Below, piece after piece: positions 8,330 to 17,637 of a stretch of DNA of 29,124 nt. The stretch is from a virus, in IMG/VR virus record IMGVR_UViG_3300034010_000071, positions 1 to 29,124 of that record. One strand, given 5' to 3'. Each line of letters opens with the position of its first letter. Within the stretch, counting starts at the first letter, position 1. The notes under the pieces were generated by a model. The model ran no database searches. It was not told the origin of the DNA and worked only from the letters and a program-made list of their open reading frames with translations. A program made the translations under genes and the position numbers.

Positions 8330-8352
8330 TTTAGCGCATAGCGTTTTAATTA

Positions 8353-8374
8353 GGGGGCAAAAGCCCCTTTTTTT
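8353..8374 (+). terminator. Intrinsic terminator closing the lysis block
   Basis: GGGGC at 8354-8358 and GCCCC at 8363-8367 form a five-base stem around AAAA, followed by seven T. CATAGCGT at 8337-8344 lies upstream, as before the terminator at 2910. It separates the lysis block from the early promoter at 8450-8480. Confidence 0.92.
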
Positions 8375-8449: not shown

Positions 8450-8480
8450 TTGGTAGATTGAAACTTACTATTTATATTTG
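8450..8480 (+). promoter_or_regulatory. Bacteroidota-type promoter of the early operon
   Basis: TTG at 8450-8452 and TATATTTG at 8473-8480 with a 20-base spacer match the TTTG/TAnnTTTG promoter of Bacteroidota. The bases that follow (TATATTTGCGTATAGTTA, 8473-8490) agree at 16 of 18 positions with the promoter at 14113-14142. Transcription would start near 8487, giving a leader of about 30 bases before ATG 8517. The rest of the 187-base gap after the terminator is AT-rich and shows no gene. Confidence 0.75.
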
Positions 8481-8516
8481 CGTATAGTTATTCACTAAAC
8501 AATTAAAAAAAACGCT

Positions 8517-8678
8517 ATGAAAACTTTTAAAATTGAATTTTTAGACAAAGATGGAAATGAACTTTGGACTTCATTAACCGAGCAGGTTAATTTGGAAGAC
8601 TGCCAACTTTACGCAGAACTATTATTTGCCAACTCGAATGTAAATGATTTATCTAACTATTTAATAACTGAATTATGA
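8517..8678 (+). CDS. Small early protein, unknown function
   Basis: 53 residues, beginning MKTFKIEFLDKDGNELWTS, acidic overall. It is the first gene after the promoter and its start lies in a 16-base leader (AAAACGCTATGAAAAC, 8509-8524) that is repeated exactly at 14159-14174 before another early gene. Its stop overlaps the next start (ATGA). First genes of early operons often act on the host, but no specific function is visible. Confidence 0.7.
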   Translation: MKTFKIEFLDKDGNELWTSLTEQVNLEDCQLYAELLFANSNVNDLSNYLITEL

Positions 8679-9330: not shown

Positions 9331-9548
9331 CACCAAAAGAAAAAGCAAAAGAACTATTTAAACGTTATATTGAATTTACCCAAGAATGGGACGAATTAGA
9401 CGGGTACATAGTAAATAAATATAACGCCAAACAATGCGCGTTAATTGCTATCGAATTATCTAAAGAATTTATAACGGGAGATTTAGACGAATCATTTGAC
9501 AAATTTTTATACCTACAAGAAGTCGAACAAGAAATAAAAAAATTATGA
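9327..9548 (+). CDS. Small helical early protein, unknown function
   Basis: 73 residues from ATG 9327 (MTPKEKAKELFKRYIEF). An upstream TTG at 9294 is in frame but has no support, and the ATG overlaps the preceding stop. MTPKEKAKELxxxY followed by KQCALIAIELSKEFI is a pattern common in small proteins of Bacteroidota phages. The stop overlaps the next start (ATGA, 9545). Confidence 0.75.
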   Translation: MTPKEKAKELFKRYIEFTQEWDELDGYIVNKYNAKQCALIAIELSKEFITGDLDESFDKFLYLQEVEQEIKKL

Positions 9549-9943
9549 CACTTTACGAAAAGGCGAAAGACCTAATTAACCAACTTGAACTCGAAAAAAA
9601 ATGCAGAAAAAGACGATTCGTTAACCAACGAAGCTACCTTGTTTATTTTCTACGAAGACACGGTGCAAGTTATCCGTACATAGCAGAACTGCTAAAACAG
9701 AACCACGCTACTTGTATTCACGCATATAATAACGCAAGGTATTGGGAAAAGAAAAGCGACAAGTTCTATATGTTAGACACGGAGTTTTTAAGAAACGAAC
9801 TAAACAACTTTGAAATTAGCAGAAGTTTAAGCGACTTGTTTATAGATGTTTTGAACTGCGGAAGTATTAAAGAACTCGAAGCAATCCAAGAACGTATAAA
9901 AAGAAATGAATATAAAAACGAAAATAAACAAATATTAAATTAA
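9545..9943 (+). CDS. Protein with DnaA C-terminal-like helix-turn-helix
   Basis: 132 residues. Residues about 22-66 (RRFVNQRSYLVYFLRRHGAS, then YPYIAELLKQNHATCIHAYNNA) resemble DnaA domain IV: a helix, then a Tyr-containing turn, then the N-H-A-T-x-x-H-A signature close to the DHTTVIHA loop with which DnaA reads its box. The ATPase part of DnaA is absent. It could therefore bind DnaA-box-like DNA, either as a phage replication factor or to redirect the host initiator. It is the last gene of the early operon and lies next to the replication block. Confidence 0.65.
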   Translation: MTLYEKAKDLINQLELEKKCRKRRFVNQRSYLVYFLRRHGASYPYIAELLKQNHATCIHAYNNARYWEKKSDKFYMLDTEFLRNELNNFEISRSLSDLFIDVLNCGSIKELEAIQERIKRNEYKNENKQILN

Positions 9944-9948
9944 TTAGT

Positions 9949-9956
9949 TATATTTG
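9949..9956 (+). promoter_or_regulatory. TATATTTG -7 element before the candidate ncRNA
   Basis: TATATTTG matches the -7 element seen at 8473, 14135 and 17083. No TTG lies 18-21 bases upstream, so the -33 part is weak. Transcription would begin near 9961-9963, exactly where the folded RNA starts. Confidence 0.6.
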
Positions 9957-9960
9957 CAAA

Positions 9961-10053
9961 TGGTTCGTCTCTCACATTATAGAACCTTAAAGAAGTTACT
10001 AACCCTTGTAATGAAGTAGAAGTGAGAGCCTACGGAGTTGCGAGGGTTTTTTA
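9961..10053 (+). ncRNA. Candidate structured RNA with kissing loops and terminator
   Basis: About 90 bases between two genes. Hairpin 1: GGTTC (9962-9966) with GAACC (9982-9986), loop of 15. Hairpin 2: 12 pairs between 10001-10012 and 10037-10048 (three G-U), a 3x3 internal loop GAA/GGA that could form G-A pairs, then GTAG (10016-10019) with CTAC (10030-10033) and a loop of 10. Loop 1 contains CTCTCAC (9969-9975) and loop 2 contains GTGAGAG (10022-10028), a perfect seven-base complement. Hairpin 2 is followed by six T (10047-10052 including two stem bases), so it doubles as an intrinsic terminator. A -7 box lies just upstream. It may be a free small RNA or a leader controlling the 10073 gene. 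Confidence 0.6.
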
Positions 10054-10072
10054 TTGATTAAAATTTAGGCAA

Positions 10073-10693
10073 ATGGCTAAAGAAAAAAATGGGTTTGTAT
10101 TGTATTGCGATGTAATACATACCGCCGAAAAACTAACCGACGAACAAGCGGGTAAATTGTTCAAACATATTTTACGTTACGTTAACGACCAAAACCCCGA
10201 ATGCGATTTTGTAACTGAGATAGCCTTTGAACCAATTAAGCAAACGCTTAAAAGAGATTTAGTTAAGTACGAAAACAAACGAGCGCAGAATAAAGCAAAC
10301 GCAGAAAAGCGATGGAATGCGACCGCATCCGAACGTATGCCAACCGATGCGAAAGATGCCGTAAGAGATAGAGTAATAGTAAGAGATAAAGTAATAGATA
10401 ATAATACTATACCTTCTTGCGAAGATTTTATAGCTTATGCAGTTAGTCAAATTTCAGATATCAATACGGAAGAAGTTAGATTGAAGTACGAAAGTTGGAA
10501 AGTTAATAATTGGTGTACGAATGTAAAGGGAAAAGAAAAACCGATTAAAAATTGGAAGTCCACTTTATTAAATACTTTACCTTACCTTGGCAGAAAAAAA
10601 CCCGAAGAATTATCCGACGATATGAAGGCTTATAACTACGTTCAAAAAATGAAAAATTACATAGACACTAAAGATTACAGAAATGCTGACTAA
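10073..10693 (+). CDS. Replication initiator/helicase-loader-like protein
   Basis: 206 residues. The N-terminal about 70 residues (FVLYCDVIHTAEKLTDEQAG, then KLFKHILRYVNDQNPE) match a domain often found at the start of replication proteins in Bacteroidota phages. A basic and variable linker includes an 18-base tandem repeat (10361-10396) giving VRDRVI-VRDKVI. The C-terminal part (ESWKVNNWCTNVKGKEKPIK, then NWKSTLLNTLPYL) has the pattern of DnaD-like replication proteins. It overlaps the ATPase gene by 11 bases. A role in loading the helicase is inferred from this pairing. Confidence 0.65.
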   Translation: MAKEKNGFVLYCDVIHTAEKLTDEQAGKLFKHILRYVNDQNPECDFVTEIAFEPIKQTLKRDLVKYENKRAQNKANAEKRWNATASERMPTDAKDAVRDRVIVRDKVIDNNTIPSCEDFIAYAVSQISDINTEEVRLKYESWKVNNWCTNVKGKEKPIKNWKSTLLNTLPYLGRKKPEELSDDMKAYNYVQKMKNYIDTKDYRNAD

Positions 10694-11546
10694 ACAAGGA
10701 GATACTATTAAATACTTATTAGACTACAAAGAAGGGAAGATTAAAGAAGGGTTGGGGATAGGTTGCGGGTTAGATGACTACCTACGATTCAAACGCAAAC
10801 AACTAAATATTATTTTAGGACACGATAATGTCGGAAAAACATATTGGATTAATTGGTACTTCCTTGTATTGGCACTAAAACACGGATTAAAGTTCTGTTT
10901 ATGGAGCGGTGAAAACCAAAAGGGACAAATATTAAGAGACTTAATACAGATGTATGCGGGTGAACCATTTAAAAACCTAACTACTCAACAGATTCAAAGT
11001 TACCTTGGCTACCTTGAACAATTTTTTTACTTCGTGGATAACTCAAAACTTTACAAGCCTTTGGAACTTTTGACCATATTCGAAAATTCGCGGTGCGACG
11101 TTGCGTTAATTGACCCTTTTACGGGGTTAGATAGAGAAATGACATACGAAGGTAACTATACTTTTATGAATAAAGCCCGTGAGTTCGTTAATAGAACGGG
11201 TATGACTATCTATATTAACACCCACCCCAATACGGAAAGTGGACGAAGTGGCAACTTATATACTGAAGGCGATTGGAAAGGACATTTAAAGCCCCCATTA
11301 AAAGACCATATCGAAGGCGGGAAGGCTTTTCTTAATAGATGCGACGATATGTTTGTAATTCACAGGTTAATTAAACACGAAGAAATGAAGTATAAAACTA
11401 TGGTAGGAGTAGAAAAAGTAAAGGATATGGACACGGGCGGGAAACACACGGGGTTAAATGAGCAAGTTTTATGTAATTTTAACTACGGATTAGGCTTTGA
11501 AGTGTACGGTGTTAACCCAATAGAAGTAATAAAACACGGATTTTAA
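10683..11546 (+). CDS. RecA/DnaB-like ATPase, probable replicative helicase
   Basis: 287 residues. Walker A is GHDNVGKT (46-53), and DVALIDPFTGLD (139-150) is the Walker B region. THPNTE near residue 180 is at the sensor position of RecA-fold helicases. The order and spacing resemble the C-terminal motor of DnaB-type helicases without the N-terminal primase-binding domain. It immediately follows and overlaps the initiator-like gene. No polymerase or primase gene is visible, so host replication proteins would be needed. Confidence 0.78.
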   Translation: MLTKQGDTIKYLLDYKEGKIKEGLGIGCGLDDYLRFKRKQLNIILGHDNVGKTYWINWYFLVLALKHGLKFCLWSGENQKGQILRDLIQMYAGEPFKNLTTQQIQSYLGYLEQFFYFVDNSKLYKPLELLTIFENSRCDVALIDPFTGLDREMTYEGNYTFMNKAREFVNRTGMTIYINTHPNTESGRSGNLYTEGDWKGHLKPPLKDHIEGGKAFLNRCDDMFVIHRLIKHEEMKYKTMVGVEKVKDMDTGGKHTGLNEQVLCNFNYGLGFEVYGVNPIEVIKHGF

Positions 11547-11850: not shown

Positions 11851-12020
11851 AAGATTTAGAAAATAAAATATTATTTGGAAACCTTAATTTAAAAAACAAA
11901 AAAGGTACATATATAAAAAAAGATTGTGTTTTTTGTATTAATGATATTGAACACAAAGGAGAAAAAATAATAAAAGTTTTAGATTATAAAATAATAGGAA
12001 CTAAAAATAAAACGTTATGA
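11847..12020 (+). CDS. 57-residue companion of the ABC-GNAT gene
   Basis: Starts by ATGA overlap with the preceding stop and ends by ATGA overlap with the ABC-GNAT start at 12017, so the two are probably translated together. The protein is basic (MKDLENKILFGNLNLKNKKG, later DCVFC). The DNA is markedly more AT-rich than the neighbouring genes, like the gene that follows, which suggests they arrived together. It could be a small partner subunit, but there is no recognised motif apart from the Cys pair in CVFC. Confidence 0.6.
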   Translation: MKDLENKILFGNLNLKNKKGTYIKKDCVFCINDIEHKGEKIIKVLDYKIIGTKNKTL

Positions 12021-13180
12021 AACAAATAGAATTAAAAAATAAAATCTTAAACGATAAATACACCGAGTATATATTTGAAGCGTTTGATATTCAAAATAAA
12101 GAAGAAACTTCAGTTAACATACCTATGAATTTTGGAGAATGCAAAACGTTTAATTGGAATATAGGTGTAATTTATGGTGGTAGCGGAACAGGTAAAACCA
12201 CATTATTAAAACAATTTGGTAATTTAGAAACTATAAATTTTGATAGTGAAAAAGCATTAATATCAAATTTTGATTGGTTAGAACCAAAAGAAGCTACGTC
12301 TTTATTGAGTGCTATTGGTTTAAGTAGTGTGCCAACTTGGTTAAGACCTTTTCACACATTAAGCAATGGAGAACAATATAGAGCAGAATTAGCATATAAG
12401 ATAGGAAAAGCAAATGAAAATGAAGTTGTATTAATAGATGAATATACTTCTGTTGTAGATAGAGATGTAGCTAAATCAATGTCTTATGCGTTGCAAAAAT
12501 ATATTAGACGATATAATAAAAAAATTGTTCTTGCTTCGTGTCATTTTGATATAATGGAATGGTTATTGCCTGATTGGACATATTCACCACTTAAAGGGCG
12601 TGTCGAAAGACACGAATGTCTTAGGCGCAGTCGACCAACCATTAACCTTTCGATATTTCGATGTAGATATGAAACTTGGAATATATTCAAACAACATCAT
12701 TATTTAACAAGTGATTTGTCTAAAAGTGCTAAATGCTTTATTACTCTTTATAATGATAAGCCAATTTGTTTTAACGCTGTTTTGCCTTTGCCAAGTGGCA
12801 CATTAAAAAATGCTTTTAGAATGAGCAGAACTGTTGTGTTGCCTGATTTTCAAGGCATAGGTATAGGTGGATTTGTTAGTGATTATATTGCAAGTTTATA
12901 TGTTAAAGATGGTAAAAGATTTTACGCAAAAACTTCTAATCCTGCTTTATGGAATAAAAGAGAAAATTCAAAAAAATGGAGGATTTGTGATATACAAAAT
13001 AATTTAGAAAAAATACGATTAGAAAATGAAAAGGGAGGACAACAAAGAAAAGTTAGCATAACTAAATCTTTTGAATATATTGGAGATGTTTCACATATAA
13101 AAGAAAAGGAGTTAGATATAATTAGATTTAATGCTGACGCTTGGAAAGATATTTCACAAAATCAATTAAGTTTATTTTAA
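12017..13180 (+). CDS. ABC ATPase fused to GNAT-type acyltransferase
   Basis: 387 residues. N-terminal ABC ATPase: Walker A GGSGTGKT (54-61), signature LSNGEQ (115-120), Walker B VVLIDE (137-142) with D-loop SVVDRD, and the switch His176. No membrane segment, so this is not a transporter subunit. After a linker (190-208) comes a GNAT domain: YETWNIFKQHHYLTSDL (218-234) and acyl-CoA motif A around RTVVLPDFQGIGIGG (271-285). AT-rich codon choice differs from the flanking genes. Phage Mu Mom, a GNAT-fold enzyme, modifies adenine in phage DNA, so a Mom-like DNA modification is one possibility; acylation of a host protein or tRNA is another. The fusion is seen; the role is inference. Confidence 0.8.
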   Translation: MKQIELKNKILNDKYTEYIFEAFDIQNKEETSVNIPMNFGECKTFNWNIGVIYGGSGTGKTTLLKQFGNLETINFDSEKALISNFDWLEPKEATSLLSAIGLSSVPTWLRPFHTLSNGEQYRAELAYKIGKANENEVVLIDEYTSVVDRDVAKSMSYALQKYIRRYNKKIVLASCHFDIMEWLLPDWTYSPLKGRVERHECLRRSRPTINLSIFRCRYETWNIFKQHHYLTSDLSKSAKCFITLYNDKPICFNAVLPLPSGTLKNAFRMSRTVVLPDFQGIGIGGFVSDYIASLYVKDGKRFYAKTSNPALWNKRENSKKWRICDIQNNLEKIRLENEKGGQQRKVSITKSFEYIGDVSHIKEKELDIIRFNADAWKDISQNQLSLF

Positions 13181-14112: not shown

Positions 14113-14142
14113 TTGCAGATTAAAAAATAAGTATTATATTTG
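14113..14142 (+). promoter_or_regulatory. Bacteroidota-type promoter, second copy of the early module
   Basis: TTG at 14113-14115 and TATATTTG at 14135-14142 with a 19-base spacer. The following sequence (to 14152) and the 16-base translation leader at 14159-14174 are shared with the promoter of the 8517 gene. Expected start of transcription near 14149. Confidence 0.78.
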
Positions 14143-14166
14143 TGTATAATTAAAAACGAAAACGCT

Positions 14167-14469
14167 ATGAAAACAATTAAATTAACACAAGAGCAGTATA
14201 ATAGAAGCCTAAAAGCTAAAGGAATGAATCACTTATGGATTTATTCTAAAAACGATACCACTCAACGTACTCATAACAATAGTATATTTTTAACAAAAAC
14301 AATCGGAGAACCTTTTGCTTGTTTGGTAGTTGAATATGATGGATGGTTTTCCGATAATGATATTGAAAAAGTATTTGGTAAAGGTGTTTTTTATGATGGC
14401 GCAGTAAGTCCTGATGATAAAGAAAATATGAATGTACCCGTTTACTACGTTAAAGGATTGGTTAAGTAA
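14167..14469 (+). CDS. Early protein behind its own promoter, unknown function
   Basis: 100 residues from ATG 14167. The frame is open to 14140, but that would begin within the -7 promoter element, so the later ATG in the shared leader is chosen. The sequence (MKTIKLTQEQYNRSLKAKGM, later PFACLVVEYDGWFSDNDIEK) has no motif I recognise. Codon use is more AT-rich than in the flanking nuclease genes. Having a dedicated strong promoter suggests early expression in quantity. Confidence 0.75.
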   Translation: MKTIKLTQEQYNRSLKAKGMNHLWIYSKNDTTQRTHNNSIFLTKTIGEPFACLVVEYDGWFSDNDIEKVFGKGVFYDGAVSPDDKENMNVPVYYVKGLVK

Positions 14470-17021: not shown

Positions 17022-17028
17022 CATTAAG

Positions 17029-17053
17029 CCGACTTTTTTTAGTCGGTTTTTTT
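17029..17053 (+). terminator. Intrinsic terminator after the recombination block
   Basis: CCGACT (17029-17034) pairs with AGTCGG (17041-17046) around six T, then seven T. Ends the early-middle transcription unit immediately before the sigma-gene promoter. Confidence 0.92.
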
Positions 17054-17061
17054 GTTTTTTG

Positions 17062-17090
17062 TTGCGATTAAAAATTAATCATTATATTTG
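17062..17090 (+). promoter_or_regulatory. Bacteroidota-type promoter of the sigma-factor gene
   Basis: TTG at 17062-17064 and TATATTTG at 17083-17090 with an 18-base spacer. Transcription would begin near 17097, leaving only about ten bases before ATG 17107, a nearly leaderless message. Confidence 0.75.
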
Positions 17091-17106
17091 ACTACAAACT
17101 AAACAA

Positions 17107-17637
17107 ATGGAATGGCTTAACATCGTCGCAAAAGACCATAAGGAATGGGTAAAAGTAGTCGAATCTTTCGGTGAAGATTTTTTTGCTGAAGACATTGTAC
17201 AAGAAGCCTACCTACGAATTTACAAGTATTGCCAACCCGAAAATATTATAAAGAATGGTCAAGTTAACAAAGGATTTATGTATTTTACTCTTCGGAATCT
17301 TTACCTTCTTCATTTACGCAGTAATTCACGATTGGAAAAAGTCCCGCTCGAACAAGTCGTAATTAAAGACGAACCAAGCGAAATGGAGAAAGAAGAAGCC
17401 TACTATAAGTTATTAATGAAGGTACAAGACGAAGTGGATTCTTGGCATTGGTACGACCAAAAATTATTCGAAGTGTATAAAGACACGGATTTAAGCATAA
17501 GAGACATAGCCAAAGAAACTACCATATCGAGCAGTTCGATTTTCAACACGTTAAAAAACTGCAAGGCAAAGATAAGAGAAGCCGTTGGCGAAGAATACGA
17601 GGACTACAAAAACACGGATTTTGAATTAATAAAATGA
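17107..17637 (+). CDS. Phage-encoded sigma factor, ECF/sigma-70 type
   Basis: 176 residues. Residues about 25-41 (FFAEDIVQEAYLRIYKY) match sigma region 2, with the D-I-V-Q-E core, and the C-terminal part (YDQKLFEVYKDTDLSIRDIA, then ISSSSIFNTLKNCKAKIREA) matches the region 4 helix-turn-helix. The length equals that of an ECF sigma factor. It would direct host RNA polymerase to phage promoters. Placed just before terminase and the long structural region, it is the best candidate for the late-gene switch. Confidence 0.8.
   Translation: MEWLNIVAKDHKEWVKVVESFGEDFFAEDIVQEAYLRIYKYCQPENIIKNGQVNKGFMYFTLRNLYLLHLRSNSRLEKVPLEQVVIKDEPSEMEKEEAYYKLLMKVQDEVDSWHWYDQKLFEVYKDTDLSIRDIAKETTISSSSIFNTLKNCKAKIREAVGEEYEDYKNTDFELIK

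Follow-up and report, generated by a model that had tools for sequence, protein, structure and literature searches.

A putative replication-control RNA with a conserved loop-loop complement ahead of a replication operon of Bacteroidota phages

The window, that is, the whole stretch of 29,124 nucleotides analysed here (positions 1 to 29,124 of the IMG/VR virus record IMGVR_UViG_3300034010_000071), holds at 9944-10072 a gap of 129 bases between two genes (Table 1). The best PHROGs of the downstream, DUF6291 gene are without known function, and its match to PHROG 6451, a primosomal protein, is weak (E 8.2e-6). In the gap, the first-pass annotation had described a -7 promoter box, two hairpins and a T run, with a seven-base complement between the two loops (CTCTCAC/GTGAGAG) and a second hairpin made of 12 outer pairs, three of them G-U, a GAA/GGA internal loop and four inner pairs; direct reading of the sequence bore out each of these elements. 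Within the window, CTCTCAC was found in the two loop arms only. The box TATATTTG agrees with what we take to be the Bacteroidota -7 consensus, and no clear -33 TTG was seen at the box of the window. The internal loop of hairpin 2 presumably resembles a tandem G-A module of the SECIS or k-turn-like kind. The second hairpin (P2a and P2b) is immediately followed by six T, as in an intrinsic terminator; it is missing from a consensus terminator scan, probably because the loop limit of that scan is 8. A type III toxin-antitoxin RNA of the ToxI type was rejected as a candidate: tandem repeats were not found at 9700-10300, and the downstream gene is a DUF6291 gene rather than one of the ToxN family.

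Table 1. Features of the intergenic RNA candidate and of the neighbouring genes (positions in the window)
Feature	Positions	Strand	Basis
Upstream gene, DnaA C-terminal HTH-like	9545-9943	+	Pfam PF08299, E 4.9e-8; no PHROG match
-7 promoter box TATATTTG, presumed Bacteroidota type	9949-9956	+	sequence
Hairpin 1, 5′ arm GGTTC	9962-9966	+	sequence, fold; covaries among relatives
X, loop-1 kissing sequence CTCTCAC	9969-9975	+	sequence, covariation
Loop-1 A/T-rich ATTATA, interval from X to 3′ arm	9976-9981	+	sequence, alignment
Hairpin 1, 3′ arm GAACC	9982-9986	+	sequence, fold, covariation
Linker, 14 bases, loosely conserved AAAGRAnTTATTA	9987-10000	+	alignment
P2a, terminator stem 5′ arm	10001-10012	+	sequence, fold, covariation
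Internal loop GAA opposite GGA; consensus UGAA/GGAU, tandem G-A type	10013-10015	+	
P2b, 5′ arm GTAG	10016-10019	+	sequence, covariation
X′, loop-2 kissing sequence GTGAGAG	10022-10028	+	sequence, covariation
P2b, 3′ arm CTAC	10030-10033	+	sequence, covariation
Internal loop GGA	10034-10036	+	sequence, alignment
P2a, 3′ arm	10037-10048	+	sequence, fold, covariation
T run (six T), intrinsic terminator	10047-10052	+	sequence
Translation start region of the downstream gene; no third X copy	10053-10072	+	sequence
Downstream gene, DUF6291, putative replication/primosomal protein	10073-10693	+	Pfam PF19808, E 6.2e-24
Second gene of the operon, primase/helicase-like	10683-11546	+	PHROGs 239 and 18375; no Pfam match

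Two more intergenic TATATTTG boxes occur in the window (8473-8480 with 8511-8524; 14135-14142 with 14161-14174), both with the start-codon context AACGCTATGAAAAC about 20-30 bases on; similar leaders are present in the loci L401 and L379. The first of them, the box at 8473, and a terminator-like site (8352-8369) are both spanned by an inverted repeat, CATAGCGTTTTAATTA at 8337-8352 and TAAAAAAAACGCTATG at 8504-8519 (88% complementary). A TATATTTG box also stands directly before a sigma-factor-like gene (17083-17637; PHROG 1740), where it follows a terminator-like site at 17026-17049; this arrangement is possibly a switch between gene sets.

Folding with ViennaRNA returned the two proposed hairpins for 9962-10053 at -25.6 kcal/mol, with a z of -2.89 that 2 of 200 shuffles equalled. 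A longer stretch of the window gave a z of -1.37 (20 of 200 shuffles as good), the relative L013 gave -0.67 (50 of 200), and the values for members other than the window, L013 included, lay between -0.67 and -2.52. Folding energy by itself is weak to moderate evidence for an RNA. The decisive test is conservation, and judged by it the feature is real.

Relatives were reached by several routes. The downstream protein led to 23 IMG/VR loci, where the RNA was visible whenever the contig extended far enough upstream; in these relatives the letters of X and X′ differed and the complement was intact, and two of them, L014 and L015, had a sister form. A DNA pattern (-7 box, ACAYTATA, TGAA) returned at least 120 viral stretches and, in bacterial genomes, at least 120 stretches as well. 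An alignment of 26 members, which excludes the window, served to build a covariance model, R1, comprising the two nested hairpins and no loop-loop pairs. This model gave 97 matches in 145 sources (65/96 and 32/49), including the window at 79.1 bits. Because some of the sources are overlapping stretches of the same contig, the 97 matches correspond to 69 distinct sequences. Each of five whole records with a match carried one copy.

On the 80 listed of the at least 120 bacterial stretches, R1 gave no convincing match (one at E 0.77 was counted as chance), and none was obtained on six bacterial genomes, for each of which 150 candidates were scored. Prophage copies were likewise not found with a tight pattern in 397 Flavobacteriaceae genomes, a set containing no positive control. 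A blastn search picked up the same element in a cultured phage, Gundel_1 of Tenacibaculum sp. AHE14PA (L026, 4009-4108), where it occupies an unannotated gap ahead of another gene; it was also matched by the covariance model, and its T run is weak (TTTCTTG). Gundel_1 was the one clear relative among cultured phages by blastn, the covariance model having been applied, among cultured phages, to this one. With four other single RNAs as blastn queries, one gave three records (27 of 121 bases, in the 3′ flank) and three gave none. The genomes that carry the RNA are mostly those of uncultured phages.

The unpaired motifs look very constant, partly because the patterns, the parser and the choice of the alignment A2 (below) required them. 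In the 52 protein-selected R1 matches, the loop-1 stretch was ATTATA or a close form in 31 and another sequence, such as ACCATA, ACAATA or AACATA, in 21. The GAA/GGA internal loop is common among the relatives, with L414, L345 and L378 as the exceptions among the protein-selected members listed. For the -7 box, the fair figure comes from the 17 printed members found by protein and model, since the pattern and the scripts used elsewhere required such a box: 16 have TATATTTG and one, L393, has TAAATTTG. A T run follows the stem in these members (two earlier scripts had required one).

The loop-loop complement is maintained throughout the family. Among the 69 distinct R1 matches, which display 32 different X sequences, 63 have eight Watson-Crick pairs between the loops and no G-U, and the other six have seven (five counted by regular expression and L008, which the expression missed, on reading); the pairing is thus usually 8 bp among relatives, against the seven noted in the window. 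A parser blind to the complement, requiring hairpin 1, the A/T-rich motif and hairpin 2, yielded 74 distinct members, all of them complementary over 7-8 bases. The 145 loci with an R1 match, pattern- and protein-derived (105 distinct, including 21 loci whose loop lacks an ATTATA-like stretch), hold a complement of 7 or 8 in every case. Six loci had been excluded by name from the parser set of 70 rows (L085, L132, L149, L249, L165 and L219), from which Gundel_1 is also absent; L085 was one wrong parse, and the locus L132 was lost through a wrong parse though it holds a true member.

Covariation was scored on the alignment A2, made of 26 of 40 representatives picked for a four-pair P2b with GAA/GGA. 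In A2, 97.2% of the cells pair versus 69.5% after shuffling, and the covariation score was 0.786 versus 0.220, falling to 0.15 or less when the partners were slid by one column. Double changes were found in 23 of 28 pairs, including six of the eight loop pairs, and compensatory changes in all four helices. The 100% loop complement of A2 is partly due to selection, because its rows were first picked for an exact complement and a standard internal loop; the counts of 74 members and 105 distinct loci are fairer figures. When all column pairs were ranked by mutual information with the average-product correction, places 1 to 21 were all occupied by proposed pairs, and the top-ranked one is a loop-loop pair. 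No competing antiterminator helix was present among the 45 best covarying column pairs listed. On these listed pairs, a riboswitch or attenuator with mutually exclusive folds was rejected as a candidate, the top 21 all belonging to one fold. In most parsed members X directly continues the 5′ arm of hairpin 1. Homologues with compensatory changes in the loop pairing, proposed at the outset as a check on the structure, proved abundant among the IMG/VR relatives.

The placement of the RNA ahead of replication genes, suggested by the first-pass annotation, was borne out by the Pfam and PHROG matches in the window and by the protein clusters of the related loci. The RNA shares its strand with the adjacent upstream ORF in 92 of 93 loci and with the adjacent downstream ORF in 94 of 96. 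The upstream ORF ends 15-30 bases before the start of the model in 68/93 loci, and the downstream ORF begins 17-31 bases past its end in 72/96. A DUF6291/DnaD-like cluster is represented in 78 of the 97 loci, always downstream, and a helicase cluster in 69. A DnaA_C-like gene is present in 56/97 loci, being the immediate upstream gene in 43 of these. HNH genes and small ORFs sometimes intervene, and the immediate downstream genes vary. Farther along in the window, the protein encoded at 12017-13180 looks like an ATPase at its N-terminus and gives a weak acetyltransferase-like match at its C-terminus; most of the protein is covered by a match to PHROG 11143, a family with no assigned function.

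A sample independent of the RNA was drawn from relatives of the helicase protein, the best 80 of 449, which are fairly close to the window. Among these best 80 loci, 73 carry a kissing element: 52 of the window's type (type A, matched by R1), 20 of a sister type (type B) and one of a type C. Since type B and type C elements were found mostly through the complement itself, their number attests presence at the site, not independent covariation. In the remaining seven contigs, the sequence starts 2 to 939 bases ahead of the helicase gene. Five of them (L342, L349, L363, L366 and L412) start beyond the site, L415 within a type B element, and L385 within a gene that precedes a replication gene with a third copy of X. 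As these seven start too far downstream, a kissing element is present in every contig that covers the site in full. Loss of the element in related phages, which would have spoken against the original proposal, was therefore not observed. All 52 type A matches lie on the strand of the helicase; together with the many G-U pairs in the outer stem of the relatives, this disfavours a DNA element such as an origin hairpin. Comparison of the sequences establishes the family, its two hairpins, their loop-loop pairing and, for the protein-selected set, a constant place at the head of the replication operon; that the RNA is transcribed from the -7 box, terminates at the T run and controls the operon is what we infer.

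Type B has the same promoter box. Its hairpin 1 loop consists nearly always of X alone, 5-7 letters ending in GCAG, and is followed by an A-rich linker and a terminator hairpin with an AGUA/GAA internal loop, which we take to be sarcin-ricin or loop-E-like, and an X′ that begins with CTGC. A pattern scan for this type returned at least 120 stretches. In the 71 distinct leaders listed, one being a chance match, X recurs downstream in 54; L507 was dropped from the type as a chance match. A third copy was scored where the final six letters of X (five in two cases) recurred within 60 bases past the terminator region; 50 of the 61 distinct leaders listed had one, compared with a mean of 9.1 and a maximum of 19 in 2000 permutations. 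It lies 0 to 6 bases before the next possible start codon. The genes with a third copy at their start (n=47) comprise 41 of the replication cluster, 5 HNH genes and 1 other, and none of 53 helicase genes is preceded by one; 17 replication-cluster ORFs of type B loci have no third copy at their start. Two of the 11 leaders without a nearby copy (11/61) are displaced cases. In L391, L394 and L456 the third copy stands at a replication gene about 1.8-1.9 kb downstream, behind other genes and not at the first gene; in L391 this gene lies 1.9 kb past the RNA. The block between the two in L391 (1629-3420) contains an ORF that on reading resembles thymidylate synthase, and other ORFs. Upstream, the DnaA_C-like cluster is the neighbour in 35 of the 56 type B leaders that have an upstream ORF.

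The letters change together at type B loci (L373, L387, L391, L398, L401, L405, L408 and many of L417-L529). In 29 aligned rows, hairpin 1, the loop-loop helix and P2b are 93.0% paired versus 71.3% after shuffling, and X′ with the third copy is 83.2% paired versus 75.5%. For the pairs within the type B RNA (alignment A7), in which no more than two loop positions vary, two of five measures did not rise above the shuffles (104/500 and 27/500); for the pairing of X′ with the third copy, two of five did not (497/500 and 500/500), partly owing to several rows in which MAFFT had put the third copy in the wrong place. Sequence comparison ties the sister type to a translation start, mostly that of the replication gene. 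Type C is represented by one locus (L379, 3277-3440; CGACCAA/TTGGTCG), where a gene that on reading resembles the replication protein has CGACC immediately ahead of its start codon.

The window itself contains no third copy of X. Across type A, a copy of at least six letters at the next gene was found in 6 of 105 leaders (permuted mean 0.78, maximum 3), five of them in the CTTCGAC lineage and the sixth, a six-letter match, in L076; a third copy as a general trait of type A was accordingly rejected, the exceptions belonging mainly to one lineage. In that lineage (L079, L098, L104, L390 and L397) CTTCGAC, the X word, comes up again directly ahead of the next start codon, which in L390 and L397 is that of a gene starting like the DUF6291 type. 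These recurrences are either remnant or re-gained targets. As a candidate for the window's subtype, an antisense RNA acting on the replication initiator was rejected, the loop having no complement at the start; such a complement is found in type B. With no third copy in the window, the antisense step draws its sequence support from type B and none from the window, and because the subtype lacks that copy, its mechanism is one that we infer.

On balance, we lean towards a replication-control RNA of about 90 nt in which the terminator loop would be the effector and the first loop a built-in copy of its target. According to this model, the gap would encode a structured RNA of that length, transcribed from its own -7 promoter as far as the second hairpin, an intrinsic terminator. 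The hairpin 1 loop X would pair with the terminator loop X′ to form a loop-loop helix of 7-8 bp. In the sister type, X′, the presumed effector, could block translation of the replication gene by pairing with its ribosome-binding site, either in trans from the terminated RNA or from within the same transcript; loop 1, as an internal copy of the target, would occupy X′ and so set a threshold. In the window's subtype, the locked terminator hairpin may gate expression of the replication genes through termination or read-through, and the target possibly lies outside the 29-kb record. We put forward more tentatively, as somewhat short of probable, a wider proposal: in Bacteroidota phages, these RNAs would form a new class that controls replication, with X′ antisense to the start of the replication gene, X its internal target copy and X again at the ribosome-binding site. 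The word would change in all places together, in the manner of an incompatibility or immunity code, and the window's subtype would be derived, having kept the lock and lost or moved the target.

A cis-acting leader of the attenuator or riboswitch kind, in which the loop contact, a protein or a ligand decides between a stop at hairpin 2 and read-through with no role in trans, would fit several of these observations, but we regard it as rather unlikely. The promoter box directly upstream and the terminator directly downstream suit it, as do the same-strand ORF that almost always follows and its short distance from the model end; the common unpaired motifs (the A/T-rich stretch of loop 1 and UGAA/GGA) could then be a binding site. 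Against it stand the varying genes immediately downstream and the list of the 45 best covarying column pairs, which includes no alternative helix for antitermination; it also leaves unexplained the third copy, which in three loci lies behind 1.8-1.9 kb of genes.

An independent small RNA or decoy acting in trans, for instance by binding a host protein or in counter-defence, and parked before the replication operon, seems improbable. It would account for an own promoter box and terminator around a compact conserved fold, for the restriction to phage records (with 0 of 397 Flavobacteriaceae genomes positive by the tight pattern, which had no positive control among them) and for a type A that is mostly without a visible target in the phage; the constant position at one operon in the protein-selected set and the sequence tie of the sister type, mostly to the replication gene, argue against it. 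We consider it very improbable that the RNA works as an oligomer through loop pairing from one molecule to the next, in dimers, chains or rings like those of the phi29 packaging RNA. Mutually complementary loops permit this, and covariation is the same for pairing within and between molecules; yet Rfam, packaging RNA included, gave no match, the tie is to replication genes and not to packaging genes, and X continues the 5′ arm of hairpin 1 in most parsed members, as a coaxial stack within one molecule would. An ordinary intrinsic terminator beside a chance hairpin, which a T run and fold z values of only -0.67 to -2.89 would allow, is already refuted by the covariation, with compensatory changes in all four helices, and the element is present in 73 of the best 80 helicase loci.

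The preferred reading, a replication-control RNA, has counterparts among known systems. CopA/CopT is an antisense control of a plasmid replication initiator. RNAII of pMV158 is described as an antisense control of translation of the replication initiator repB (PMC4485353). Like both, the candidate is a small terminated RNA by a replication gene and, in most of the sister type, has a loop complementary to the start of that gene. Unlike them, the phage RNA lies on the same strand, upstream, and is not antisense-encoded to its target; it has an internal target copy, and the window's subtype is without the copy at the start site. Control of replication initiators by small RNAs is already known from plasmid antisense RNAs; as far as can be tested, the combination of a same-strand arrangement, an internal target copy and a co-changing third copy is new.

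The phi29 packaging RNA has two complementary loops that form about 4 bp. The present RNA resembles it in holding two complementary loops in one phage RNA and differs in its pairing of 7-8 bp, its place at the head of a replication operon and the lack of an Rfam match. Riboswitches with kissing loops, for instance the purine riboswitches, also lie ahead of genes and link two hairpins through a loop-loop contact, as here; unlike them, our RNA shows no three-way junction, no Rfam match and no alternative helix in the covariation list. The c4 antisense RNA is a phage RNA whose short loop sequences pair with target copies. The candidate resembles it in this and differs in the lack of an Rfam match, in its neighbours and, going by what we take the c4 structure to be, in structure. 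The c4 antisense RNA of P1/P7-type phages is tabulated as RF01695 in PMC2864571.

At the gathering score, Rfam 15 had no match in the whole window, in 15 further type A loci or in 12 type B loci, the families thus unmatched including c4 antisense RNA, phi29 pRNA, 6S-flavo, Flavo-1 and riboswitches. A permissive scan of 9900-10100 gave four matches with E values of 1.8 to 6.2, all far below gathering. The match to a known family that would have spoken against the original proposal is accordingly absent, and no published description of it was found in the open-licence literature. To our knowledge, very few small regulatory RNAs have been described from Bacteroidota phages, and it is uncommon for a loop-loop contact in a phage RNA to be backed by comparable covariation.

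Mechanism aside, the element is a candidate new RNA family with a fixed site before a common phage replication operon. A complement that is conserved as its letters change suggests a real switch on viral DNA replication. If the three-copy arrangement works in the way proposed, phage DNA replication would be under a self-contained, self-titrating control, a few bases being enough to change its specificity, and interference between related phages would be directly testable.
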